NCBI GenBank assembly: GCA_902624095.1
Contig: CACNWB010000002.1
Span: forward strand, 56,153-120,152
Length of the DNA: 64,000 nt
Reading direction: 5' to 3'
From: an uncultured PS1 clade bacterium
Lineage (GTDB): Bacteria; Pseudomonadota; Alphaproteobacteria; RS24
The position numbers and the translations under genes were made by a program. Shown piece after piece: positions 5,929 through 55,133 of the stretch (its first letter is position 1; each line of letters begins with the position of its first letter). Below the pieces are notes generated by a model. The model made no database searches, was not told the origin of the DNA, and saw only the letters and a list, made by a program, of their open reading frames with translations.

Positions 5929-6267
5929 CTACATTGAAAAGACGGATTTCTTGCAAGTCAAAGTGGCGAAGCGGGCGCCTAACAGCGCCTCGATTTCACC
6001 GGTTTCACGATTGACTCTGATTTCATCGTCTTCGACTTTGAGTTCCAGCCGATCTTTTTCCCTGAACACAATCTCAAGAGCTTGGGGCCCCTGCTCGGTG
6101 AAGAGCGTGGCAGTAGTTGTGCCGCGCTGGGTTTCAAGTTCGATGCTTTGAAGTCCCAAACGATTGAATTCACAAGTATATTTTTCGGTTCTGAAACGGA
6201 CAAAATCTTCACAGGCGCTTAGAAAGCTGAAAGACACAAAAACTAAACCAAGCAGGTTAGGTTTCAT
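5929..6267 (-). CDS. Uncharacterised small lipoprotein
   Basis: MKPNLLGLVFVSFSFLSACEDF (signal plus lipobox); start overlaps the stop of the upstream acidic-repeat gene. Confidence 0.6.
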   Translation of the reverse strand: MKPNLLGLVFVSFSFLSACEDFVRFRTEKYTCEFNRLGLQSIELETQRGTTTATLFTEQGPQALEIVFREKDRLELKVEDDEIRVNRETGEIEALLGARFATLTCKKSVFSM

Positions 6268-7459
6268 CGGCCTTTTCGGTTTCGTCACTTGCCTCATTTC
6301 CGTCATTTTCACCACTTTCGCCATTTTTATTGTCCGACACGGCTGATTCCTCGGCACTGTCGGAGGCCAGCGCTTCGTCAATTTCCTTAAACGCCTCGGC
6401 GGTTTCCGCGATGGCTGTTGCCAGCACATGATCCTCGGTATCAAGTAATTCAACATCTGCTTCATTACTCGCTTGTTCACTTGCTTCGTCAATTGGTTCC
6501 GGAATGTCGCCCGCGCTCTCCACGGCCGCCCGAGTTTCCGCATTTGGTTCGACATCCGCTTCCGTTTCTGCTGCTACGGTTTCATCGGCCGCTTCCGCTT
6601 CGACATCCGCTTCATCAGTGGCATTTTTTGATTCCGGCATTTCTTCTGCTACCGTCTCATCAGTCGATTCTGCTGCCACGGTTTCATCAGCTACTTCTTC
6701 TGCTTCCGGAATCTCATCTGCTACTTCTTTTGCTTCCGAAATCTCATCTGCTATTTCTTCTGCCACGGTTTCATCAGCTACTTCTTCTGCTTCCGGAATC
6801 TCATCTGCTACGGTGTCATCAGTTGCTTCCGCTGCTTCGGCTTCGATCTCCTTGCCCGTTTCTTCCTGAATATCTTCATCCGCATCGGACTGCTGGGCGC
6901 TTTCAGGGGCGGCGTCTTCTTCCGATACCGTATCATCTTCCGATACTGCGTCTTCCTCCGATACCGTATCATCTTCCGATACTGCGTCTTCCTCCGATAA
7001 TTCGGGGTCTGCGGCCTCGCGCAACTCGGCATGGCCGGCATCAATCAGGCGTTGGGCATCGGCCGCCGAAACATCAACGATAATGCCTTCGGGAAGCCGC
7101 ATGTCGTTGACTTCGCAATTCTCCAGCACCCGCACGCGAGCCCAGCTTCTGCCTGCGGTATCATCATCCGCCACATCCAGTTCGCCAAGAGGTTCGGATG
7201 CTGGCACAAATTCGACTGTTTCTTCAAAATCTATTATGCGTTTGCGCAATAAATACACCCGAGCGGCCAATGCTCCGAGGCGCTTTGTCTCGTCTTCCTC
7301 AGTTTCCAAAAGTTTTTGGACAAATTCTTTGAGTTCGGCAAATGGCTTGTCTTCAAAATGGTCGATAATTTTGTCGCGCGCGGCCTCAATCTCAGGCGCC
7401 AGGCGCCGTAGGCCAGTTCGCGCGTCACGCGCGTGCTGCGGAAGTTCGACCTCATCCAT
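6257..7459 (-). CDS. Acidic Glu/Ala/Asp-rich repeat protein, uncharacterised, divergent from flgB
   Basis: ORF from MDEVELPQHARDARTGL with RBS GGAGAAAAA; about 130 aa ordered N-terminus, then repetitive VSEDDTVSEEDA / EIPEAEEVADETVA segments; sigma54 box upstream. Confidence 0.75.
   Translation of the reverse strand: MDEVELPQHARDARTGLRRLAPEIEAARDKIIDHFEDKPFAELKEFVQKLLETEEDETKRLGALAARVYLLRKRIIDFEETVEFVPASEPLGELDVADDDTAGRSWARVRVLENCEVNDMRLPEGIIVDVSAADAQRLIDAGHAELREAADPELSEEDAVSEDDTVSEEDAVSEDDTVSEEDAAPESAQQSDADEDIQEETGKEIEAEAAEATDDTVADEIPEAEEVADETVAEEIADEISEAKEVADEIPEAEEVADETVAAESTDETVAEEMPESKNATDEADVEAEAADETVAAETEADVEPNAETRAAVESAGDIPEPIDEASEQASNEADVELLDTEDHVLATAIAETAEAFKEIDEALASDSAEESAVSDNKNGESGENDGNEASDETEKADET
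6640..6830. repeat. Degenerate tandem repeats encoding EIPEAEEVADETVAEEIADE
   Basis: Repeated gcttccggaatctcatctgctac / cttctgccacggtttcatcagctac blocks. Confidence 0.8.
6912..6999. repeat. 36-bp tandem repeat (about 2.4 copies) inside the acidic-repeat gene
   Basis: gcgtcttc(t/c)tccgataccgtatcatcttccgatact at 6912-6947 and 6948-6983, partial at 6984-6999. Confidence 0.9.
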
Positions 7460-7482: not shown

Positions 7483-7497
7483 TGGCACCCAATTTGC
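7483..7497 (+). promoter_or_regulatory. sigma54 promoter (TGGCACCCAATTTGC) for flgB operon
   Basis: Consensus -24/-12 with GG-N10-GC; 58 nt upstream of flgB ATG (7555). Confidence 0.85.
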
Positions 7498-7510
7498 AAT
7501 TTCAGTACCA
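7496..7510 (-). promoter_or_regulatory. sigma54 promoter (TGGTACTGAAATTGC) for acidic-repeat gene, sharing the TTGCAA -12 element with the flgB promoter
   Basis: Reverse-strand GG-N10-GC; GC at 7496-7497 is shared with the forward promoter; about 37 nt upstream of ATG 7459. Confidence 0.7.
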
Positions 7511-7554
7511 AGTGAACTGTCCCAGCGGGACGTTAGCACAATTTGGAAAGATAT

Positions 7555-7938
7555 ATGAGTTCGTTTGTCGACAGTTTAAAATTTTACGCTGACACGCTAG
7601 CCCTCCGGTCGCGGCGGGGCAATGTATTGGCGACGAATATTGCCAATGCCGCCACGCCACATTTCAAGGCGCGCGATGTGAATTTTGATGCTGAAATGCG
7701 GAAAATCTCCAAAACAAATGTTCTGGACACAACACATAGTAAACATATCCCCGTGCCTGGTTTGCGCGAAGGCGAGCTGGCCTACCGCCAGTCAGTCAAC
7801 CCGTCGCTAGACGGCAATACTGTGGAAATGGTTGTCGAGCAAACCGAGTTTTCCGAAAACGCTGTTCGGTACCAAACCTCGCTTGCATTCATCAATGGTC
7901 GCATTGCCGGTCTTATGTCAGCGATTAGGGGTGAATGA
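7555..7938 (+). CDS. flgB: Flagellar proximal rod protein FlgB
   Basis: MSSFVDSLKFYADTLALRSRRGNVLATNIANAATPHFKARDVNF. Confidence 0.92.
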   Translation: MSSFVDSLKFYADTLALRSRRGNVLATNIANAATPHFKARDVNFDAEMRKISKTNVLDTTHSKHIPVPGLREGELAYRQSVNPSLDGNTVEMVVEQTEFSENAVRYQTSLAFINGRIAGLMSAIRGE

Positions 7939-9107: not shown

Positions 9108-12100
9108 ATGTCGTTTTATACAGCTTTGACAGGATTGAACGGTTCGCAGGCGGATATTTCAGCCACGTCGAACAATATCGCCAACGTCGGTACCACTGGT
9201 TTTAAACGAAGCCGCGCCGAGTTTGGTGATATTTTCGCAACCTCGCCGTTGCAAAACTCATCCTCATCGATTGGTTCGGGTACAATCCTAAAAGGCATCA
9301 AGCAGCAATTTACCCAAGGTAATATTGTGTCTTCGCTCAACGCACTTGACTTGGCTATTTCCGGACAGGGCTTTTTTGCGCTAAAGCCCTCGCTGACGTC
9401 AAACCAGACGGTCTATACACGAAACGGTTCACTAAACGTGAACAATGACCGGTACGTTGTTGATTCAGCTGGTCAATTCCTAAGCGTCTATCCAGTCAAC
9501 GACGACGGATCTGTTACTGCAAAGGACTTGTTGAGTGCTGTGCCTTTGCAACTACCTGTGACATCTGGTGACCCTCGCGCAACCAGTAATATTGAACTTG
9601 GTGTGAACGTTCCTGCCGCCGCAACCGTAGTGACTGAGCAACCTCAATTTACCGATGGATATGAGTTTAATCCCGATGACCCAACAACTTTTACGAATTC
9701 AACATCGATAACAATCTTTGATGACCTTGGTAATCCAACAATCGCAACAATCTATTTTATCAAGACCCAGAATGCTTCGGCGTCTGACCCTACTAACAAA
9801 TTTGATACGCGACTTGTCATAAATGACACCGTAATAGGCCCAGACCTCGTAAATGCTGTTGATGATAGTGGCCGGCAAATTTTTATAGATCGGTTCGGAA
9901 CGCAAACTATCTCTGTTCCAGACGACAACTACTTCTTGGAAGGAAAGGGATCGGCGCTATATAAGGCTGACTCACTTCAAACCAAAGTGAACTCGCAGCC
10001 TGCAAGCCTAAAGGGTGAACAGGCTGGATTTGATTTTGGTGAAGAGGGCGATAAGCTGGTTGAGATTGTTACCGACCCCATGCAATTTAACTCTACCAAA
10101 GAAGCGGGCAACGTCGAAGGTAATGTATTTTGGGGCAAAGATTTTCTGCTAGTAAATATTGATGATGGTGACCAGCCAGTCAGCATTGATATCCGACCAG
10201 GCAAATATAATGCTGTGCAGCTCGCGAACGAGGTAGAGCGGGCAATCAATGAAGCCTATGGCGATGATAAAAAAATCCAGATTGTGCAAAACGTGGACGA
10301 CACGCTCACTCTTGACCTAATCAAGCTAGATGCGGATGGCGTGTCCACTGGGTTGACCAACAAAATTTCCGTCGATCTACTCGTAGATAGTTTTGTGTCC
10401 CAGCAAATACCAGGTATGGATATAAATGGAGCATCCCCAGATTTTACCCTTGAGCAATTTTTGGCTCATTCGCAGGCTAGGCTTAATGAGGCCCTTAATA
10501 GCCACGTAATCGCCACAAATGCCGGAACAGGAGCTGAAACAAGCCAGAACTCAGAGGTTGGGGTGGGTAATAATTTATTTGCTCGGACTTCGGGCGCCGC
10601 TATGGACGGTATCCTGGATAAGACGCAGATTGTGGAATTCGAATATCGGAGCATGGATGCCACATCAACCGCCATTACCACGCAAGACAAATTTCTTGTG
10701 CACTCCTATTATGGTCGTCGTCCCGAATTAAGCGTTTACAATGAGCGTGTTCAGACTGCCGTCAACGCGAACGGTAATACCGTAGAGTATGATGCAGCCC
10801 AGAATACTCTTACTATTCAGCTGACCTCGGGCGGAGCAGCGAATTTTGTAAGTGGTGAAACAATTCGACTTGGTGGCGTCTTCGCTAATGCTTCAGGCGA
10901 AACATTACTGAATGGTAGAGAATTGACTATCTTTTCGGTGGATACAACCAACCATTTAATCAAGGTTGATACAACTGGGCTGTCTCTTCCAGATACCAAC
11001 TTTAACGAGACGAACAGTACAGTTTTCGCGCTAAGAGATAAAGCCTCAGATGTTGAAGCGTTTTTTGAAGGCGCAACAAACGTATATGAAGGATCTGACG
11101 TCAATTTTAATAGTAAAAAAATTATATTGCGAGAAAAAGGCGCGGCCAACTTGCATCCATACACAAACACCCAACTAGAGGACGCCAGCAGACAAATCAC
11201 TATAACGGAGACAGTCAACGGCGACTCCACAGCCATTACAACCAATGCCATGCCTGATAATGGAGGGGAAAGTCAGGTGGTGGGAGTAGGTGATACTATT
11301 CAAATAAGCTTCGGCCATAATGAAGCAAATTATACATTTAGAATCGCCGGAGCAGGAACAGTCAATGTGACAGTTGCAGGTCAAACAACGCAACCGTTTA
11401 CAACTGCGATTGATAATGCACTAGCTGCAATCAATGCTGACGCAAATTTAACAGCCACGAGAGTGGGTGAAAAAATCCAAATCGTCGTCGCAAATGCCAC
11501 TGCGACAATCTCAAATGTGCAATCAACAACAACAACAGAAAAAGGTATTTTTGAAGTTACAGGCGCTACATTATCTCTTACGGATTCTGGTGGTGCCGCC
11601 ATAGACGCACTTGAAAAGCTTGGGCTCGAAACCGTCACTAACACCGACGCGACTTCTACAAAAACTGTTTGGGTCGATGAACTGCAGCCTCCAATCAAGG
11701 TTGGTTACGACGAAATTAATCAGCGACTTACATTCAAAGTAGACAGAACCGTTTTAGGGACTGGTACAAATAGTAATTTTAACTCGTTTAAAGTTTCTGG
11801 AGCGTCAACTGCTGAACAGACTAATAACCTGGGTATTCCGGCTTCCGATGACGCGACGGAAACTTTAATAAGGGGTGGCGAAGTATTCTTTGGAGAGCCA
11901 TTTGTAGCAGACGGCGAAGAGATCCAGCTAAACGACAAACGGTATGGTGCTGATGTTCAATACAATAGTGATACAAAGACATTTACTTTCTCCAGCGGCT
12001 CTACCGGTGAAGCAATTGAAGCGAATGGTGCTATTGGTGTAACCGCGACACAAAAAAGTTCGAATATCCAAGTCGGGCGTTATTCCATAAGCGCCACGGA

Positions 12101-13244
12101 TGGATCAGTCATTAACAACGCTGTCGCTCTCGCCAGCCGCTCATTAGGACAGGGCGAAAACGCCCTAATGGGCGTCGGTTTAACGAAGACAGATGCGATT
12201 TTTGCAGCTGGCACAGGGTTGCAGGCTTTGCCGGCTATTTCGATTGGTGCTACCGCCAAAGAGCCTTTGACTGAAGTCTTTCGGCTTACAAATGTGGCCA
12301 ATGAAAATGTTTTCAATGTATCCGTGAATGGTATTAACGGTGTTATTGAAATTCCGACCGGCAATTATGTTGGATCCACGTTGGCGACAGCTCTTCAGGA
12401 GCGTATTAACCAAATCAGAGATCCTGAAACGGGCAATACAGTTGGAGGCGTGACGGTAAAATATGATGCTAATTCGAATAACTTTACCTTCACAACGGGA
12501 ACGCGAGGAGATGAATCAACTATCAAAGTTAAGGGAACCGCAAGATTAGGACTGGATGATGTTCCGCTTGGTGTGGGATCTGTTCCTCAAATTTTCAACT
12601 TAACCCAAGCTACCAACGCCCAAGGTGTTGCATTGTTTGTTAATGAAAATGGTCAAGTGGTGGAAAGTCCGCCGGCCAATCTGGTGGAAGGATATTTCCC
12701 TCTTTATATTGATGAGGGAGAGCTGACCTTCGATAAAAGTGGTCAATTAGTATCGCCAAAAAACCTGGTTCACTACGAAAAGCAGGAAGAAGGATTCTCG
12801 ATCGACCTAAATATTGATTTTTCGAAATCGACACAGTTCGCGCAGCCTTTCTCCGTGGTCTCGGTTGATCAGGACGGCTTTACTTCCGGGCGTCTTGACG
12901 GTCTGGAAATTGATGCTTCCGGTACAATCCGTGCCAATTACACCAATGGTCAGAACAATCCGTTAGGTAAAATCGTGGTTGCCAACTTCAACAACCAAAA
13001 TGGTTTGAAACAGATCGGTAACGCAACCTATGTGGAAACAGCTGTTTCTGGTGCGCCGCAGGTAGGTGAAGCGGGTTCTGAAGGTTTCGGCAATATTCTT
13101 TCGGGTTCGCTCGAACGCTCTAATGTGGATATCACCGAGGAGCTCGTGAATTTGATTACTGCCCAGCGTAACTTCCAGGCGTCTGCCAAGGCTATCGAAA
13201 CGACCACTTCGCTGACTCAGACAATAATTAATATCCGTATGTAG
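9108..13244 (+). CDS. flgE: Flagellar hook protein FlgE, unusually long (1378 aa)
   Basis: N-term MSFYTALTGLNGSQADISATSNNIANVGTTGFKRSRAEFGDIF; C-term LERSNVDITEELVNLITAQRNFQASAKAIETTTSLTQTIINIRM; large central insertion. Confidence 0.93.
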   Translation: MSFYTALTGLNGSQADISATSNNIANVGTTGFKRSRAEFGDIFATSPLQNSSSSIGSGTILKGIKQQFTQGNIVSSLNALDLAISGQGFFALKPSLTSNQTVYTRNGSLNVNNDRYVVDSAGQFLSVYPVNDDGSVTAKDLLSAVPLQLPVTSGDPRATSNIELGVNVPAAATVVTEQPQFTDGYEFNPDDPTTFTNSTSITIFDDLGNPTIATIYFIKTQNASASDPTNKFDTRLVINDTVIGPDLVNAVDDSGRQIFIDRFGTQTISVPDDNYFLEGKGSALYKADSLQTKVNSQPASLKGEQAGFDFGEEGDKLVEIVTDPMQFNSTKEAGNVEGNVFWGKDFLLVNIDDGDQPVSIDIRPGKYNAVQLANEVERAINEAYGDDKKIQIVQNVDDTLTLDLIKLDADGVSTGLTNKISVDLLVDSFVSQQIPGMDINGASPDFTLEQFLAHSQARLNEALNSHVIATNAGTGAETSQNSEVGVGNNLFARTSGAAMDGILDKTQIVEFEYRSMDATSTAITTQDKFLVHSYYGRRPELSVYNERVQTAVNANGNTVEYDAAQNTLTIQLTSGGAANFVSGETIRLGGVFANASGETLLNGRELTIFSVDTTNHLIKVDTTGLSLPDTNFNETNSTVFALRDKASDVEAFFEGATNVYEGSDVNFNSKKIILREKGAANLHPYTNTQLEDASRQITITETVNGDSTAITTNAMPDNGGESQVVGVGDTIQISFGHNEANYTFRIAGAGTVNVTVAGQTTQPFTTAIDNALAAINADANLTATRVGEKIQIVVANATATISNVQSTTTTEKGIFEVTGATLSLTDSGGAAIDALEKLGLETVTNTDATSTKTVWVDELQPPIKVGYDEINQRLTFKVDRTVLGTGTNSNFNSFKVSGASTAEQTNNLGIPASDDATETLIRGGEVFFGEPFVADGEEIQLNDKRYGADVQYNSDTKTFTFSSGSTGEAIEANGAIGVTATQKSSNIQVGRYSISATDGSVINNAVALASRSLGQGENALMGVGLTKTDAIFAAGTGLQALPAISIGATAKEPLTEVFRLTNVANENVFNVSVNGINGVIEIPTGNYVGSTLATALQERINQIRDPETGNTVGGVTVKYDANSNNFTFTTGTRGDESTIKVKGTARLGLDDVPLGVGSVPQIFNLTQATNAQGVALFVNENGQVVESPPANLVEGYFPLYIDEGELTFDKSGQLVSPKNLVHYEKQEEGFSIDLNIDFSKSTQFAQPFSVVSVDQDGFTSGRLDGLEIDASGTIRANYTNGQNNPLGKIVVANFNNQNGLKQIGNATYVETAVSGAPQVGEAGSEGFGNILSGSLERSNVDITEELVNLITAQRNFQASAKAIETTTSLTQTIINIRM

Positions 13245-17070: not shown

Positions 17071-20000
17071 ATGGCAAGTCTGTTTGATATCGCTAATAGT
17101 GGGCTACAATCCTACAGAAAAGCTCTTTCGGTTACTGGGCAAAATATCGGTAACATTAACACTGAGGGATTTAAGCGTCGCGAAGCAAACCTCGAGGAGG
17201 TAACGTCTGGCACAGGCGGGGTTCAGAGCTCCGGAAGTCAGGTAGGTTTGGGCGTCCGAGTTGAATCTATTAGGCGTTCATTCGATACTTATCTCCAAAC
17301 AAGAGTCCGGACATCACTTGCTCAATTTGAAAATACGGACACTTTTGTTGGAAGTCTTAAAGAAATAGAAAATATGCTTCTGCCCGGAGACGCAGGACTA
17401 GGCAATTTTTTGGGTAATTTTTTTGCTTCTCTGCAAGCTGTTGCCTCTTCTCCGGCGGATAATGCGCCGCGTGTTGTTGCGACGGAAGACGGCAAGGCGC
17501 TCGCAAATGCCTTCCGGCAAACCCATCAAATGCTAACCGATGTTAAAACAGGGATTCTGCAAGAGGCTAAGCAGGAAGCGGCCTTATTGAATGAATTGTC
17601 TATTCAAGCTGCTAAAAACAACGCTCAAATACTTTCCACTGGACAGGGTTCGTCCAGTAATTTTTTGCTCGATACAAGAGATAGAGTTATCGACGAAATA
17701 AGTCGTCTTGCTGAAATTACAGCGGATTTAGGTTCGCGTGGGGAAGCACTAGTGCGGCTTGGCCCCAGTGGTGTCGGTCTTGAATTGGTTTCCGAGAGCA
17801 ACTCAAAATCCCTAGAAGTTTTCAGCGATGATCGCACGTTGGGTTTTTCAATAGATGGCACGCCGACAAGTCAGATTGTAAATGGCAAACTTAAGGGACT
17901 GCAGGTCGGTTATGCTTTGGCAGCAGAAATAATTTCCGAATTGGACCAATTGGCTTTTAATTTCGTGAAAGCGGTAAATGCTCAACACAGAGAGGGCATA
18001 GATATTGACGGAGCTGAAGGTATCGATATGTTCGGTTCAGCAGGCTTTGAAGTTAGCAAAGGCAGAACAAACACTGGCGTGTATTCAGTTGAAACAACTG
18101 TCACAGACATAAACCTTGCCCAGTCTGCAGATATCAGCTTTTCATTTTCCAAGGAACAAAACTCTTGGATTGCAAGAGATGCTTCATCGAACCAAATTGG
18201 AAGTGGCCGAGACATTATTCTGTTACCCGGATTGCAGGTTCAGGTAATCGGCAGCCCTGATAATAATGATGATTTTTTGCTCAGTCCGGCGTCTAATTAC
18301 GCCAAAAACCTAAGCTTTCTTCTAACTAGCGGCGATCAGATTGCAGCGGCAGCCAAAAATTTAGTTTCTTCCGATGTGGCTAACACGGGAGATGCCTCAA
18401 TTCAAGCAACAAGGCTCCTGACAAATTCCCCCTCCGATATGCCGAGTATATCAGAAGTTATGCGGAATTCGGCGTCTGTAGTAACGGGAACAACTTTCTT
18501 GAGAGACGGGAGCGTTTTTTCAGTTCCTTCCAATGTCGACAATATTTCCCTGACAAGTTTTGATTCGCAAGAACAACTGCAGTTCTCTCTTTCAAACGCC
18601 GAATTACAATCGGCATCCCAGTTGAGCTTTTCAATTGTTCAGCCAAATGGCACAACTGTAGATCACCAGTTTGACATAAGATATGCTAGCGTGTTTCCAG
18701 GATCTGCCGGACGGTGGACAGATGCTAGTGAAATTGGAAAATACCTAAACCTTGGCACTCTAAAAAATGCTAGCAATCAAAGTCTCAAGGATTTGGGCAT
18801 TTTTGTTGCTGCATCAGGCGCCCAAATAACAATGGCGTTGTCAGCCGGTCAGTTTTCTTCCGCCACTAATAAGGAAGGGAAAATTAGTTCTGGTTCTGCT
18901 AATGTTCTGGGCACAAAGAAATCTGCGAGCTCAAGCTCCAATATTCAGATTTTCACTCGCGAAGGGCGCCATATTGCGGGCACGACACTCTCCGGATCGG
19001 AGATTGCCTCCTTGTTGGTGAAGGAAAATGGATTTTCTTCCGCGGCTCGATACCGGGCGGACTACCTGAATTCGGCAACACACTCCTATCGTGGTATAAA
19101 ACTGGATCGTTCGATTTCTGGCGGTGAGAAACGGATAGTGTTTGGCAGTAATGGTACTGCGGCAAGCGCTACGGGAGCAGTTGGTTCTGTGCCCGCGAGT
19201 TCGGCGGCCGCTCATACTTTAACACTTAATACGGTAAGTCATTCCACGGATCTGAGCATTTCAACGGGCAGCTCAGCAGAACTGGTAGCTTCACAAATAA
19301 ACGCTATTGCCAAAGATAATGGAGTGATGGCCCACGCCTCGACGAGGGTAGAGTTCTTTGCCCCCAGCACCTCTGGCACCGCAACTTTTTCAATAGAGTC
19401 TGTGAACCAAAAACCGGTTAACGTTTCAGCGCAAATTTCGAACACTGATCTGACTGATTTTGCTCAAAAAATTAATGAATTGTCTGGTCAAACAGGCGTT
19501 AAAGCCTCGCTTTCTGCCGACCGTCTGCGTGTGGTGCTTGAGAGTGAGACTGGCAAAGATATCATTCTTTCTGGTTTTTCATTCGCGGGAACTATGAGCA
19601 GCCGGGTTGTGGACCAAAGGACTAAAAGTTTAACTTCGACCATTACACTAGGGCAAGGCAACAACGACAGCGCCCGTTATTCAGGCGCAATTGAATTATT
19701 GTCTCAGGGTGCCTTTTCAATAACTAAAACAGGAAGCGCAACTGTAAATGCAAGCAATTCTGAACTTGCGTCCGGGCTGATTAAAGAAACGCTGTCTCAA
19801 ACTGGAGAAAAATCGGCTCTATTTTTTGATGCGGACCAAGCTGGAGCAGGAAATCAAGCTGGCGCTTCGGGCTTCAAGGCTTCTGTAGCATCGGGCCAAT
19901 TTAATGTCTCGCTTCCAAGTACCGGATCGGGTCAGGCTTTTGCGGCTTCGGTTGCCCTCAAAAATTTGTCAGAAGTTTCGCCAAGTAGTATCGCGTCTGA

Positions 20001-21360
20001 GATTGCTAACCAGTTGAGAGGTTCCTCACCGACGACGGCTCTTTCCGGGGTAACTGCTCTAACCGTTCTGCCTGAAGATAAAAGTTCGGTCAAAGTTTCA
20101 TTCGAAGGCAAGATCTATACACTTGAAGTTGCTTACAAGAATGCGTCCATCAAAACAAATCCCGATATTAGAGTGACTGGGGGTGAGGCCGGCCGCATCG
20201 AGGCTTACTTCGACGCAAATAACAGACTGCAGATTGTTGCTCCAGATGGCAGCGTTAACGGTTCTCAGATAACGGTTCCCGCAAACAGCATTATCGCTGG
20301 AAATGGAGATCGCGCAACCGAGTTTGGTTTAATCTCTTCAAGTGCCGAACCTACGACTGTTTTAAGCGGTCGCAGCGTGTCTTTGCCGACTTCAACTCAA
20401 AATCTGGCTGTGACCGTCGGTGGCAGTGCAGTGAATGTAAGATTAACCCACAGTTCGGGGACATTCACGCTTTCCAGTGCTGATACATCTAAATTAACCG
20501 CTACCTTTGCGAGCACAGGCGGGGCCACAAGCACCAGTGCCAACGACAGAATTTTGCTGAAATCTAACCTCGCGGCACCAGCAATTTCTGTGCCTGAAGC
20601 CGCTGCTTCGGAAGGCCTTGGTTTTAAAGTTTCAGATTATGTAGTCACTTTGAACTCGGACATGTTAGACATCACGCGAACCGATGGCGAGGCTTTGACG
20701 ATCACACGATCTGCCACTTCGCCGGCCGCTGAGAAAATTAGTCTGTCTAATTTGCCCAATGAAGAGCTGATTGTCATGCTAACTGGAAACGGCGCCAGAC
20801 TTTTGTCAGCGTCTTTTGACGAGCTGCCAGTAACTGGCGCAGACCCAATCGAAAATTTTACGGTTCAGTTAATGAATAGCGAAGCTCGAACTATTGAAGT
20901 TTTTGACAAAGATACAGGTCATTCAATTGCTAACCGCGTCCTTGACGAAAATGATCAAACACATGTCGTCGGGTACGAAATAGGTTTGACAGGCCGAGGC
21001 AGCGATGGGGATCGGTATCATATTGAAGAAAATATCGGAGCAGTAGGCGATGGCCGAAATGCGCTAGCGCTTGCCGCGCTCCAGCGGACAACAGTAGGAA
21101 AACCATCCAGTTCCGGCTTTCAGCAAATATTTAATGACACCGTTACTAGGGTTGGAGCAAGCCTTCGAGCAAATGAAACCTCTCTTGAGGCCGCCGAGGC
21201 TATTATGGAAGCCAGTGTAGATGCAGAAGCAGCATATTCCGGTATTAATCTGGATACGGAAGCTGCCCGTTTAATTGAGCAACAACAAGCTTATCAAGCT
21301 TCGGCACGGATTTTGCAGACAGCCAGGGAGCTATTCCAAACACTCATGGATGTGGTCTGA
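17071..21360 (+). CDS. flgK: Hook-filament junction protein FlgK, unusually long (1429 aa)
   Basis: N-term MASLFDIANSGLQSYRKALSVTGQNIGNINTEGFKRREANLEEV; C-term SGINLDTEAARLIEQQQAYQASARILQTARELFQTLMDVV. Confidence 0.93.
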   Translation: MASLFDIANSGLQSYRKALSVTGQNIGNINTEGFKRREANLEEVTSGTGGVQSSGSQVGLGVRVESIRRSFDTYLQTRVRTSLAQFENTDTFVGSLKEIENMLLPGDAGLGNFLGNFFASLQAVASSPADNAPRVVATEDGKALANAFRQTHQMLTDVKTGILQEAKQEAALLNELSIQAAKNNAQILSTGQGSSSNFLLDTRDRVIDEISRLAEITADLGSRGEALVRLGPSGVGLELVSESNSKSLEVFSDDRTLGFSIDGTPTSQIVNGKLKGLQVGYALAAEIISELDQLAFNFVKAVNAQHREGIDIDGAEGIDMFGSAGFEVSKGRTNTGVYSVETTVTDINLAQSADISFSFSKEQNSWIARDASSNQIGSGRDIILLPGLQVQVIGSPDNNDDFLLSPASNYAKNLSFLLTSGDQIAAAAKNLVSSDVANTGDASIQATRLLTNSPSDMPSISEVMRNSASVVTGTTFLRDGSVFSVPSNVDNISLTSFDSQEQLQFSLSNAELQSASQLSFSIVQPNGTTVDHQFDIRYASVFPGSAGRWTDASEIGKYLNLGTLKNASNQSLKDLGIFVAASGAQITMALSAGQFSSATNKEGKISSGSANVLGTKKSASSSSNIQIFTREGRHIAGTTLSGSEIASLLVKENGFSSAARYRADYLNSATHSYRGIKLDRSISGGEKRIVFGSNGTAASATGAVGSVPASSAAAHTLTLNTVSHSTDLSISTGSSAELVASQINAIAKDNGVMAHASTRVEFFAPSTSGTATFSIESVNQKPVNVSAQISNTDLTDFAQKINELSGQTGVKASLSADRLRVVLESETGKDIILSGFSFAGTMSSRVVDQRTKSLTSTITLGQGNNDSARYSGAIELLSQGAFSITKTGSATVNASNSELASGLIKETLSQTGEKSALFFDADQAGAGNQAGASGFKASVASGQFNVSLPSTGSGQAFAASVALKNLSEVSPSSIASEIANQLRGSSPTTALSGVTALTVLPEDKSSVKVSFEGKIYTLEVAYKNASIKTNPDIRVTGGEAGRIEAYFDANNRLQIVAPDGSVNGSQITVPANSIIAGNGDRATEFGLISSSAEPTTVLSGRSVSLPTSTQNLAVTVGGSAVNVRLTHSSGTFTLSSADTSKLTATFASTGGATSTSANDRILLKSNLAAPAISVPEAAASEGLGFKVSDYVVTLNSDMLDITRTDGEALTITRSATSPAAEKISLSNLPNEELIVMLTGNGARLLSASFDELPVTGADPIENFTVQLMNSEARTIEVFDKDTGHSIANRVLDENDQTHVVGYEIGLTGRGSDGDRYHIEENIGAVGDGRNALALAALQRTTVGKPSSSGFQQIFNDTVTRVGASLRANETSLEAAEAIMEASVDAEAAYSGINLDTEAARLIEQQQAYQASARILQTARELFQTLMDVV

Positions 21361-32847: not shown

Positions 32848-33927
32848 TTACTTGTCGGTCGGCTTTTCGATCATCAGTTTTTTCATTTTTTCTATTAAAG
32901 TTGTTCGGCGCAGGTTCAAGGCTTCGGCGGCGCCGCTAATAGTGCCATTCGTCTTTGTCAATGCCGCCTCAATAAGCACCACCTCAACATCGCGCAAATG
33001 GCGGCGCAGATCTATCGCATCAAAATAGGCAAACCACTCCCTATAATGGCTCGGGTGCGGCAGCGGGCTCTGACTGTCAAGGTCGGTATCGCCGGAAATG
33101 CCTTCCAGGTCTTGCGAGGCGGTCCAAAGCGCGTCTTGCTCTTCACTACGGCTGGGCACCCGTAGGCGCAAAAGATTATTGCGAACATCTTTGCCGGTTA
33201 CCGTTTTGCCCGGAAACAAAAGCACGGCGCGTTCGACAATATTGCGCAATTCGCGCACATTTCCTGGCCAATTGTAACGTGACATTTCGGACAGCGCGCT
33301 GTCGTCAAATTTCGGCATGTCCTGTTCGGCATCGGCTTCGATTTGCGTGAGCATGGTTTTGACAAGAAGCGGCACATCAACACTGCGCTCGGCCAGGCTC
33401 GGCACCTGAATGGGAAAAACATTAATGCGATAGAACAAATCCGCACGGAAACGCCCGTCATCGACATAGGCATCCAAATTCTGGTGAGTGGCGCAAACCA
33501 GCCGAAAATCCACTGGAATGTCTTCATTTCCGCCAACGCGCTGAATTGTGCGGTTTTCCAGCGCGCGCAGAAGCTTTGACTGGAGATTGAGGTTCATGTC
33601 GCCTATCTCGTCGAGAAACAATGTGCCACCATTCGCCATTTCAAAACGACCCTCACGAGCCTGATCGGCACCTGTAAATGCGCCTTTTTCATGACCGAAT
33701 AGTTCGGATTCCAGCAATTCTGCTGGAATTGCCGCACAATTTACCGAAACCAAGCGCCCATTGCGATGCGATGCAGCGTGAATGGCATTTGCAACCACAT
33801 CCTTGCCAGTGCCAGTTTCGCCCTGTATCAAAACCGAGCTGGCCGATGGCGCTACAATACCGATCAGATTTTTAAGTTCCTTGATAGGTGCCGATTGTCC
33901 GGCGATCAATTCGTCAATTGCTTGCAT
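32848..33927 (-). CDS. sigma54-dependent activator, FleQ/FlrA-like AAA+ plus Fis-type HTH, no receiver domain
   Basis: Walker [27 protein letters not shown]-term HTH (GAAEALNLRRTTLIEKMKKL); AAA+ begins within about 20 aa of start. Confidence 0.88.
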   Translation of the reverse strand: MQAIDELIAGQSAPIKELKNLIGIVAPSASSVLIQGETGTGKDVVANAIHAASHRNGRLVSVNCAAIPAELLESELFGHEKGAFTGADQAREGRFEMANGGTLFLDEIGDMNLNLQSKLLRALENRTIQRVGGNEDIPVDFRLVCATHQNLDAYVDDGRFRADLFYRINVFPIQVPSLAERSVDVPLLVKTMLTQIEADAEQDMPKFDDSALSEMSRYNWPGNVRELRNIVERAVLLFPGKTVTGKDVRNNLLRLRVPSRSEEQDALWTASQDLEGISGDTDLDSQSPLPHPSHYREWFAYFDAIDLRRHLRDVEVVLIEAALTKTNGTISGAAEALNLRRTTLIEKMKKLMIEKPTDK

Positions 33928-34089
33928 ATTTTCAAAAACCGATCCCCAAAACACCCTGTCAACAATTCGGCAAACATTCCCACGCGCGTGTCATGTTTTT
34001 GAACCCATTGACTAACACTATGCGGGAAACCGCCCATAAATACCCCAAAAAAATTTAAATTAACTAAAATTTTACGCTTTTTAAGAGTT

Positions 34090-34104
34090 TGGCCTGCTTC
34101 TTGC
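34090..34104 (+). promoter_or_regulatory. sigma54-like promoter (TGGCCTGCTTCTTGC) for second activator/fliE/fliF operon
   Basis: GG-N10-GC; 34 nt upstream of ATG 34138. Confidence 0.65.
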
Positions 34105-34137: not shown

Positions 34138-35310
34138 ATGGGTGAGATTTGTATTCATAGTTTCGGATTGGACATCGCGCCGCGTTTGGCCCAAGCTCTG
34201 GGCGCGCGCATGGCAAAAACGACGCTCGTCAAAAGCGCCGATGCACCGGCGGGCGAGGCTGGGCAGACCTGCGATGCGCTGGTCATATCGAAATCGCTGG
34301 TCGAAAAGCTGGGTGGCACGGAAGCCCTGCTCGAATTTGCGCGCAAAGCAAAGGCGCGCAAAATACTCATCATTCACGAAGATGCCGATGCTCCCAAAAT
34401 CATATGCGGCACAGGCGGGCGTGTTTGGAATATGGCTCTGAGCGGCGTGAATGAAGAAGCTGACGGCGAGTTTGGCGTGCAAATGGCCGCCACGCTTGTG
34501 AGCGAGGCGCACAATGTGGCCGTGTCGGATGATGCCAGTTCCAATTTGCTGACCATGGCGCGTCGCGTGGCCGATACGGATGTCACGGTTTTCATCAATG
34601 GCCCCACGGGCACGGGCAAGGAAGTGCTGGCGCGCTTCGTTCACAATTATTCTTCGCGCAGCGAACAGCCTTTTGTGGCTGTCAATTGCGCGGCCATTCC
34701 AGAAAACATGCTGGAAGCCATTTTGTTTGGCCATGAAAAGGGCGCGTTTACCGGCGCCTCATCGGCCAATAAGGGTATTTTCCGAGCTTCGGATGGCGGC
34801 ACGCTTCTGCTAGATGAAATTTCTGAGATGCCAATGTCGCTACAGGCGAAATTGCTGCGTGTGTTGCAGGAAAAGGCCGTCACGCCGATCGGGGCGCACC
34901 AGGATATCCCCGTAGACGTGCGTGTGGTGGCAACCTCAAACCGCGACATGATGGATGAAATCCGCGACGGCAAGTTTCGTGAAGACCTCTATTATCGCCT
35001 GAATGTGTTTCCGCTGGCAACGCTGCATCTTTCGGCACGCCGTGCCGACATCATCCCCATCGCCACAGTGCTTTTAAAACGCCATTGCGAAAATAAAGAC
35101 CAAATACCTTGGCTGACGCCCGAGGCCTTGCAAGTGCTTATGGGTTATGACTGGCCCGGCAATGTGCGCGAATTGGAAAATGTTCTCCAGCGCGCGCTTG
35201 TCTTGTGTGAAGGCAGTGTAATTAACGCCACCGACATTGTCACCGATTTGGGTAGCGTGAATATGGTGGCCCAGCCAACCAATTTAAAACTAGAGCAAAC
35301 CGGGTCCTAA
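34138..35310 (+). CDS. sigma54-dependent activator, FlbD/FlgR-like; no recognisable C-terminal HTH
   Basis: Walker [26 protein letters not shown]; ends about 30-35 aa after [15 protein letters not shown]; operon with fliE/fliF. Confidence 0.88.
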
Positions 35311-53565: not shown

Positions 53566-53630
53566 TTGTTATTTTTGTCATTGCCAAAAACACGCTCACA
53601 GTGCGCCCGTACACAAAAAGGGAGTGTGTC

Positions 53631-55133
53631 ATGCAACTGAGCCAATCGATCCGTCTCAAGCAAAAGCAGTCCATGGTAATGACGCCAAGACTGCAACAAG
53701 CCATTCGAATGTTGCAGATGAATAATCTGGATCTGACCAGCTATCTGGAAGATCAGGCGCTCGAAAACCCATTTCTTGAAGTTGCGGCCAATAGCGCTGA
53801 GGGCGAGGAAACAGGCGGCAATGAAGCGTTTGATGCCGCCGCGCCGGATACTGTACGGGCGGAAGCCGCCAGCACCATTGATACAGATATGAAAGCCGGT
53901 GCCAGCCCACAAGATGACCCTGCAGGGCAGCAAGATTTTGACAATCGCTTTGATTACAGCCCCGCCGACGGGCCGCGGGGCTGCCAAAACCCACAAGGTG
54001 GCGACCAAGACTGGGACTTGATCGCATCAACCATTGCCGATCGGCCGCCCTCTTTGTTCGAGCATGTTGGACGACAGATCGACATGGCTTTTGATGAACC
54101 CAAGCAACGCATGATTGCCCATATTCTTACCGGCGCGCTGTTACCAAGTGGCTGGATGGGCAAGCAGGTCGATGACATTGCCGAAGAAAATGACCTATCG
54201 CGCGATGATGTTGCGCGAGTTTTAACCCGCATGCAGAAATTTGAGCCGACTGGCATTTTCGCCATGGGGCTAACTGATTGTCTGCGCCTGCAGGCGCGCG
54301 AGGCCGGTGTACTTGACGCGCCTTTTGAAGTTTTGCTGGATAATTTGGAATTGCTGGCGCAGGGCAAGATCGACCAGCTAGCGCGCCGATGCAAAGCCTC
54401 GCCTGAAGACGTGCGGAAGATGTTGCGCCGCATTCGTCAGTTCGACCCGAAACCAGCCGAAACTTTTTTCGGCGAAGTGGAAATTGTAAACGCGCCCGAC
54501 CTAATCGCCTATCTTGGTCCCGACGGATGGGTCGTTGAACTAAACAAATCGACCTTGCCGGGAATTACGATTGACGAAAATTATGCAGCGCGGCTGAAAA
54601 AACGGGTTGCCGAGCAAGCCGAACAGAAATTTACCATGCAGGCGCTTTCCTCGGCACGCTGGCTGAAGCGGGCTATGCAACAACGCAATGAGACCACATT
54701 GGCAATAGCCGCCGAAATCGTCCGCCAACAGACACCATTTCTAGAAAAAGGGGCAAATCACCTAAAGCCGCTTTTGCTGCGCGATGTGGCCAAGGCCGTG
54801 GGCATGCATGAAAGCACGGTAAGCCGTGTGACAACTGGACTGATGATTGCCACGCCGCGCGGCAGTGTGACATTGAAATCGTTTTTCAGTGTATCGCTGG
54901 CTTCTGAGGACAGTGAAGCCGGTACATCAGCGGCTTCTGTGCGTCATTTGATAAGTGAAATAATTGCTAAAGAGGAGCCGTGCGATCCCTTCAGTGATGA
55001 TGAAATCGTAAGGCGCATCAATGCCGGCGGCGTTGCCGTTGCGCGTCGCACGGTTGCCAAATATCGCCAGATTTTGAAAATTCCGTCTTCGGCAGAGCGT
55101 CGCCGTCGCGCGCGTCTGAACGCATCTGTCTAA
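53631..55133 (+). CDS. rpoN: RNA polymerase sigma54 factor RpoN
   Basis: MQLSQSIRLKQKQSMVMTPRLQQAIRMLQ; RpoN box ARRTVAKYRQ near C-terminus. Confidence 0.97.
   Translation: MQLSQSIRLKQKQSMVMTPRLQQAIRMLQMNNLDLTSYLEDQALENPFLEVAANSAEGEETGGNEAFDAAAPDTVRAEAASTIDTDMKAGASPQDDPAGQQDFDNRFDYSPADGPRGCQNPQGGDQDWDLIASTIADRPPSLFEHVGRQIDMAFDEPKQRMIAHILTGALLPSGWMGKQVDDIAEENDLSRDDVARVLTRMQKFEPTGIFAMGLTDCLRLQAREAGVLDAPFEVLLDNLELLAQGKIDQLARRCKASPEDVRKMLRRIRQFDPKPAETFFGEVEIVNAPDLIAYLGPDGWVVELNKSTLPGITIDENYAARLKKRVAEQAEQKFTMQALSSARWLKRAMQQRNETTLAIAAEIVRQQTPFLEKGANHLKPLLLRDVAKAVGMHESTVSRVTTGLMIATPRGSVTLKSFFSVSLASEDSEAGTSAASVRHLISEIIAKEEPCDPFSDDEIVRRINAGGVAVARRTVAKYRQILKIPSSAERRRRARLNASV

Follow-up and report, generated by a model that had tools for sequence, protein, structure and literature searches.

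A 28-bp block (TGGCACCCAATTTGCAATTTCAGTACCA) between flgB and a divergently oriented gene pair, here termed A1 and A2, is very likely a conserved bidirectional σ54 promoter that is biased toward flgB. The block appears to be the σ54 counterpart of the recently described σ70 bidirectional promoters, and its arrangement suggests that two flagellar operons may compete for one polymerase seat. Its geometry, its conservation, the σ54-like preferences of both arms and the link to the divergent gene can be seen directly in the sequence. A first-pass annotation of the window (the whole 64-kb stretch of DNA analysed here) had proposed two divergent σ54 promoters sharing one −12 element. Support for this reading comes from its deep conservation, from the exact spacing and from σ54-like preferences of the minus arm, and further from flgB loci that lack the divergent gene and from loci with a relocated minus site. 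The features concerned are listed in Table 1.

Table 1. Promoter elements, flanking genes and σ54 machinery in the window
Feature	Position	Strand	Remarks
Interlocked (bidirectional) σ54 promoter, predicted	7483..7510	both	28 bp
σ54 promoter toward flgB, predicted	7483..7498	+	TGGCACCCAATTTGCA; start predicted at 7509
σ54 promoter toward the divergent A1-A2 pair, predicted	7495..7510	-	TGGTACTGAAATTGCA; start predicted at 7484
Common palindromic −12 element TTGCAA	7494..7499	both	
flgB, first gene of rod/hook operon	7555..7938	+	flgC, flgD, flgE and later flagellar genes follow
A1, divergent gene	6257..7459	-	ATG 7459-7457; no Pfam family above cut-off
A2, small putative lipoprotein (MKPNLLGLVFVSFSFLSAC...)	5929..6267	-	start overlaps A1 end
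FleQ-like activator	32848..33954	-	AAA+ σ54 activation domain and HTH_8; no receiver domain found
FleT-like activator	34138..35310	+	AAA+ without DNA-binding HTH; own σ54-like site at 34090; then fliF
rpoN in flagellar cluster	53601..55133	+	

The criterion applied for a σ54 site, GG-N10-GC within TGGCAC-N5-TTGC, identified one site on each strand. On the plus strand, GG at 7484-7485 is followed by GC at 7496-7497 with a spacing of N10, and on the minus strand GG at 7509-7508 is followed by GC at 7497-7496 with the same spacing. The coordinates thus confirmed two details of the first-pass annotation, namely that GG-N10-GC is exact on both strands and that a single GC inside TTGCAA is common to both sites. 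The transcription starts that it had expected were also obtained when we computed them from the geometry. Each predicted start therefore lies inside the −24 element of the opposite promoter, and a conserved CCA is situated at the predicted plus start (7508-7510). Compared with the consensus TGGCACGNNNNTTGCA, the plus site matches at 11 and the minus site at 10 of 12 positions. As expected of a bidirectional promoter, a symmetric core element is common to both directions and is flanked by one arm on each side. The block occurs only once in the genome according to pattern searches, on which all genome-wide statements made here are based.

To follow the block through evolution, we used loci from FlgB searches, which covered close relatives, the order of G035 and 80 named loci in genome_contigs, most of them from marine Alphaproteobacteria, with SAR116-type and Rhodobacteraceae-type organisms among them. 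Almost every flgB locus that we inspected was preceded by a plus σ54 site. Of those with such a site, 99 were non-redundant, and in 79 of the 99 the CC of the minus −24 element stood at exactly N10 after the plus GC, a proportion that is not an unbiased frequency because the loci were partly picked as best FlgB matches of this group. The next most common offset, 5, had CC 26 times, and no remaining offset had it more than 7 times. At other σ54-like sites of the same loci, CC at N10 occurred in only 1 of 32 cases. Conservation of the minus −24 GG, the lack of which the first-pass annotation had named as a refutation, was thus borne out. Cultured strains with the interlock include IMCC14465, Thalassococcus halodurans and Donghicola mangrovi.

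Representatives less than 80% identical over 80 bp comprised 43 interlocked and 12 non-interlocked loci. As interlocking is defined by CC at N10, the mirrored GG/CC pair found in 43/43 representatives defines the group and its CC is invariant by construction. The same holds for TGGCA and TTGC, as the search was anchored on them. TTGCAA as a whole was invariant in all 43 interlocked representatives. Its second A is not fixed by construction and was present in 43/43 interlocked versus 6/12 non-interlocked representatives (Fisher 3e-5, relatedness ignored). Likewise not fixed by construction, a pyrimidine at position 6 and a purine at position 7 of the minus arm were found in 43/43 versus 3/12 (Fisher 3e-8, relatedness ignored). 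A few bases past the block on the flgB side, the information content was mostly 0.1-0.4 bits per column. The interlock state needs about 4 changes on a FlgB+FlgC tree of 98 rows, versus 18.5 with shuffled labels. Most simply, interlocking is ancestral in this sample and was later lost in places, on a tree whose root is not fixed. Judged from these sequences, the interlock is retained through deep divergence, yet not obligatory. The strictly symmetric strong/strong pattern TGGCRY-N5-TTGCAA-N5-RYGCCA had no match in 398 Pseudomonadota genomes, and the strong form is thus not common elsewhere. A relaxed pattern matched in 33 of 386 Alphaproteobacteria genomes, and where matches outside the flgB region were inspected, none had a convincing divergent gene pair.

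Where the contig extends far enough, A1 lies upstream of most interlocked flgB genes, and many interlocked loci proved to carry A2 behind A1. The divergent ORF of some Rhodobacteraceae-type loci could be recognised as A1-like by eye alone, being too diverged for the profile. A control in which the gene is absent was provided by the sphingomonad-like family f13. Its 32 flgB loci without an A1 match carry a strong plus σ54 site in 31 cases, and none of them is interlocked. Of these loci, 4 have GCAA and 6 have CC at N10, and no locus has both. In the evenly drawn Rhodobacteraceae-type family f22, this type of flgB was present in 12 of 219 genomes and interlocked in 9 of the 12, with minus arms matching the consensus at up to 11 of 12 positions. 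The sphingomonad-like and Rhodobacteraceae-type identities of f13 and f22 are deduced from FlgB type and sampling.

A1 without interlock was kept in the SAR116-core clade and in three further loci (L037, L085 and L169). As several clades keep A1 in this way, the coupling is dispensable. SAR116-core, the largest loss clade, has kept a shorter A1, and no A2 was detected there. Upstream of flgB, six SAR116-core loci (L072, L073, L075, L076, L092 and L099) are devoid of a minus arm. The same six loci have in common an ACGAC-containing stretch just upstream of the divergent gene, which may be a different promoter. Roseovarius, Loktanella and L210, all without interlock, carry a complete minus σ54 site (TGGTCCNNTCCTTGCA) nearby that has its own −12 TTGC. 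In L089, L093, L060 and L210, likewise not interlocked, the complete minus site is located downstream of the plus promoter, and the predicted minus transcript would thus run through the flgB promoter.

The two arms differ in strength. In 36 of the 43 representatives the plus arm outscores the minus arm, and it scores lower in one. The consensus CA after TGG is missing from the minus −24 element in most representatives; the minus promoter could thus be weak. The two positions of this CA are mirrored on the minus arm in only 2/43 and 1/43 representatives, compared with a chance expectation of a quarter (relatedness uncorrected), a deficit suggesting that the preference for flgB is itself maintained. 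From the shared C of the −12 element to the A1 start, the minus leader measures about 33 nt in the representatives, usually with a purine-rich Shine-Dalgarno-like run; in the present genome, the A1 ATG lies 37 nt beyond the shared C.

Several other explanations for the block were considered. It is scarcely credible that the interlock is a meaningless product of chance. The −12 consensus often reads TTGCAA, a mirrored −24 element arises easily, and a TGG at the right place is all that the second arm requires. Nevertheless, no interlocked pair in any of 200 simulated 64-kb windows (first-order Markov) reached (11,10) or higher. A summed score of 20, seen in one simulation, was the maximum among them, versus 21 observed, and none of the other strong σ54-like sites of the window is interlocked. 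The concentration of 79/99 loci at one offset and the 0/32 interlocked loci where the divergent gene is absent speak against chance as well, and a chance origin is refuted by conservation. Equally hard to maintain is a constraint on the start site or leader, by which the conserved CCA would serve the flgB promoter and merely mimic a minus −24 element. Its position at the predicted plus start fits such a role. However, other σ54-like sites of these loci almost never have the CCA, genomes lacking A1 have no interlock CCA at their flgB promoters, and the CCA is conserved together with the second A of TTGCAA, a base that the plus promoter can do without. These comparisons already largely refute a start-site constraint on flgB.

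The block might also be an operator, its dyad TGG-N8-TTGCAA-N8-CCA binding a dimeric regulator of the flgB promoter while the minus strand is not a promoter at all. In essentially all representatives, the outer and central elements are indeed symmetric. Beyond the promoter core, however, the symmetry of a dimeric-repressor operator was not found, as mirroring was limited to 1-3 of 43 representatives at dyad positions 3, 4, 6 and 7 (besides the two CA positions mentioned above, 3/43 and 2/43). Moreover, both arms have kept σ54 spacing, the minus arm of Roseovarius, Loktanella and L210 lies elsewhere and has a −12 of its own, and the dyad is absent where the divergent gene is absent even though the plus promoter stays. 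An operator is thus quite improbable. We also regard it as unlikely that only the plus promoter fires and that the minus arm is a non-productive seat, which parks polymerase the wrong way and lowers flgB expression while A1-A2 is transcribed from a promoter elsewhere. The systematically weaker minus arm would be in line with this, and RpoN holoenzyme has been proposed to act as a repressor at some sites in E. coli (PMC8743547). Yet the minus arm tracks the divergent gene and not flgB, and the short A1 leader implies that any other promoter must overlap the block or sit in the flgB leader.

In the bidirectional promoter that we favour, TTGCAA would be read by σ54 holoenzyme in either direction, the left −24 TGG being used for flgB and the right −24 TGG for the A1-A2 operon. 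Both arms are presumably active promoters, and since the sites overlap and melting would begin at the same place in both, only one holoenzyme would be bound at any moment. The overlap is sound reason to expect that two holoenzymes are unable to occupy the block together. Strict mutual exclusivity of expression is one possible outcome among others. A biased splitter that mostly favours flgB would agree with the data as well, and the outcome may be alternation, a fixed ratio or mere compactness. The σ54 closed complex forms before activation and is stable, and every round of transcription needs an ATP-driven activator. The FleQ/FleT-like pair would activate both directions. Owing to the stability of closed complexes before activation, how strongly one −24 arm binds relative to the other could set a split biased toward flgB, and one site would thus apportion polymerase to the rod/hook operon and to its partner. 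More tentatively, the block might be a maintained orientation switch. One stable closed complex, with its orientation set before activation, would then pick either the rod/hook or the A1-A2 mRNA, resulting in a fixed ratio or in cell-to-cell alternation.

Bidirectional σ70 promoters that share a −10 element are known (Warman 2021, cited in PMC12825309; Warman 2026, PMC12825309). In these systems, opposing polymerases cannot bind at once, and activating one direction can repress the other (PMC12825309). Like them, the block uses one pseudo-symmetric core element for both directions. Unlike them, it depends on σ54, has TTGCAA at −12 as the common element together with two −24 arms, and would need an ATP-driven activator. 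Compared with weak σ70 promoters, long-lived σ54 closed complexes are expected here, which makes competition at the binding step more plausible; such competition would be stronger with σ54 than with σ70. As σ54 separates binding from opening, the block lends itself to a clean test of whether the ratio of two operons is set by competition for a common core element. In the open-licence literature, we found no description of a σ54 promoter pair with a common −12 element, nor of a bidirectional promoter that several alphaproteobacterial families retain at the same orthologous position. The retention of the block at one such position makes function and selection arguable from evolution.

Divergent but separate σ54 promoters drive flaN/flbG in Caulobacter. 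In Desulfovibrio, the divergent orp1/orp2 promoters are also separate, with IHF sites between them (PMC3897727). Both cases resemble the present locus in that two divergent operons depend on σ54 and one activator system, whereas the promoters here, unlike those of orp, overlap and have a common −12 element.

The genome encodes σ54 as well as AAA+ activators: a second rpoN gene lies about 6.8 kb before the window, in addition to the one in the flagellar cluster, and the FleQ/FleT-like pair is present. In Vibrio, the flgB promoter is bound directly by RpoN and is thus a direct RpoN target (PMC9817140). The Fla1 flagellum of Rhodobacter sphaeroides is regulated by RpoN2, FleQ and FleT (PMC7277832). 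Similarly, an rpoN gene in the flagellar cluster is accompanied here by a FleQ-like activator with an HTH and a FleT-like one near fli genes, the latter having its own σ54-like site and being followed by fliF, an arrangement that resembles Fla1-type wiring. No interlocked promoter came up in the consulted passages of the Fla1 review, and R. sphaeroides itself is outside the locus sample. The two activator genes are divergent, and the domains are split between them, as if their products were obliged to act as a hetero-oligomer.

In abundant marine bacteria, A1-A2 may be a partner of the rod/hook operon that has gone unrecognised. The A1 protein has a conserved N-terminal region of ~150 amino acids, comprising a helical domain and a small beta domain, followed by a long acidic repeat tail. 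Comparison of A1 and A2 with Pfam and NCBIfam gave no family above cut-off, and sequence searches revealed no relative of solved structure. An AlphaFold model of the A1 N-terminal region (6953-7459; m3e9a5b2a95ee, pLDDT 80.6) shows the helical domain and the small beta domain. In Foldseek searches, GINS replication subunits were recurrent but weak matches (best E 4.9e-3), and 3anw_B matched locally (rmsd 1.8 over 47 columns). The resemblance of the model to GINS subunits is no more than weak. Many A1 family members had a weak match to the phage-type DUF7210. Further left of A1/A2 are LPP20-type, FlgT, FlgA and FlgM genes. On the opposite side, two ORFs (9108-13244 and 17071-21360) code for unusually long flagellar proteins of hook type and hook-associated type (1378 and 1429 aa). 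The flgB leader contains inverted repeats at 7519-7531 (GTCCCAGCGGGAC), with GCATGTTTTCATGC found in relatives (L014, downstream of its promoter), which are a possible hairpin or activator site.
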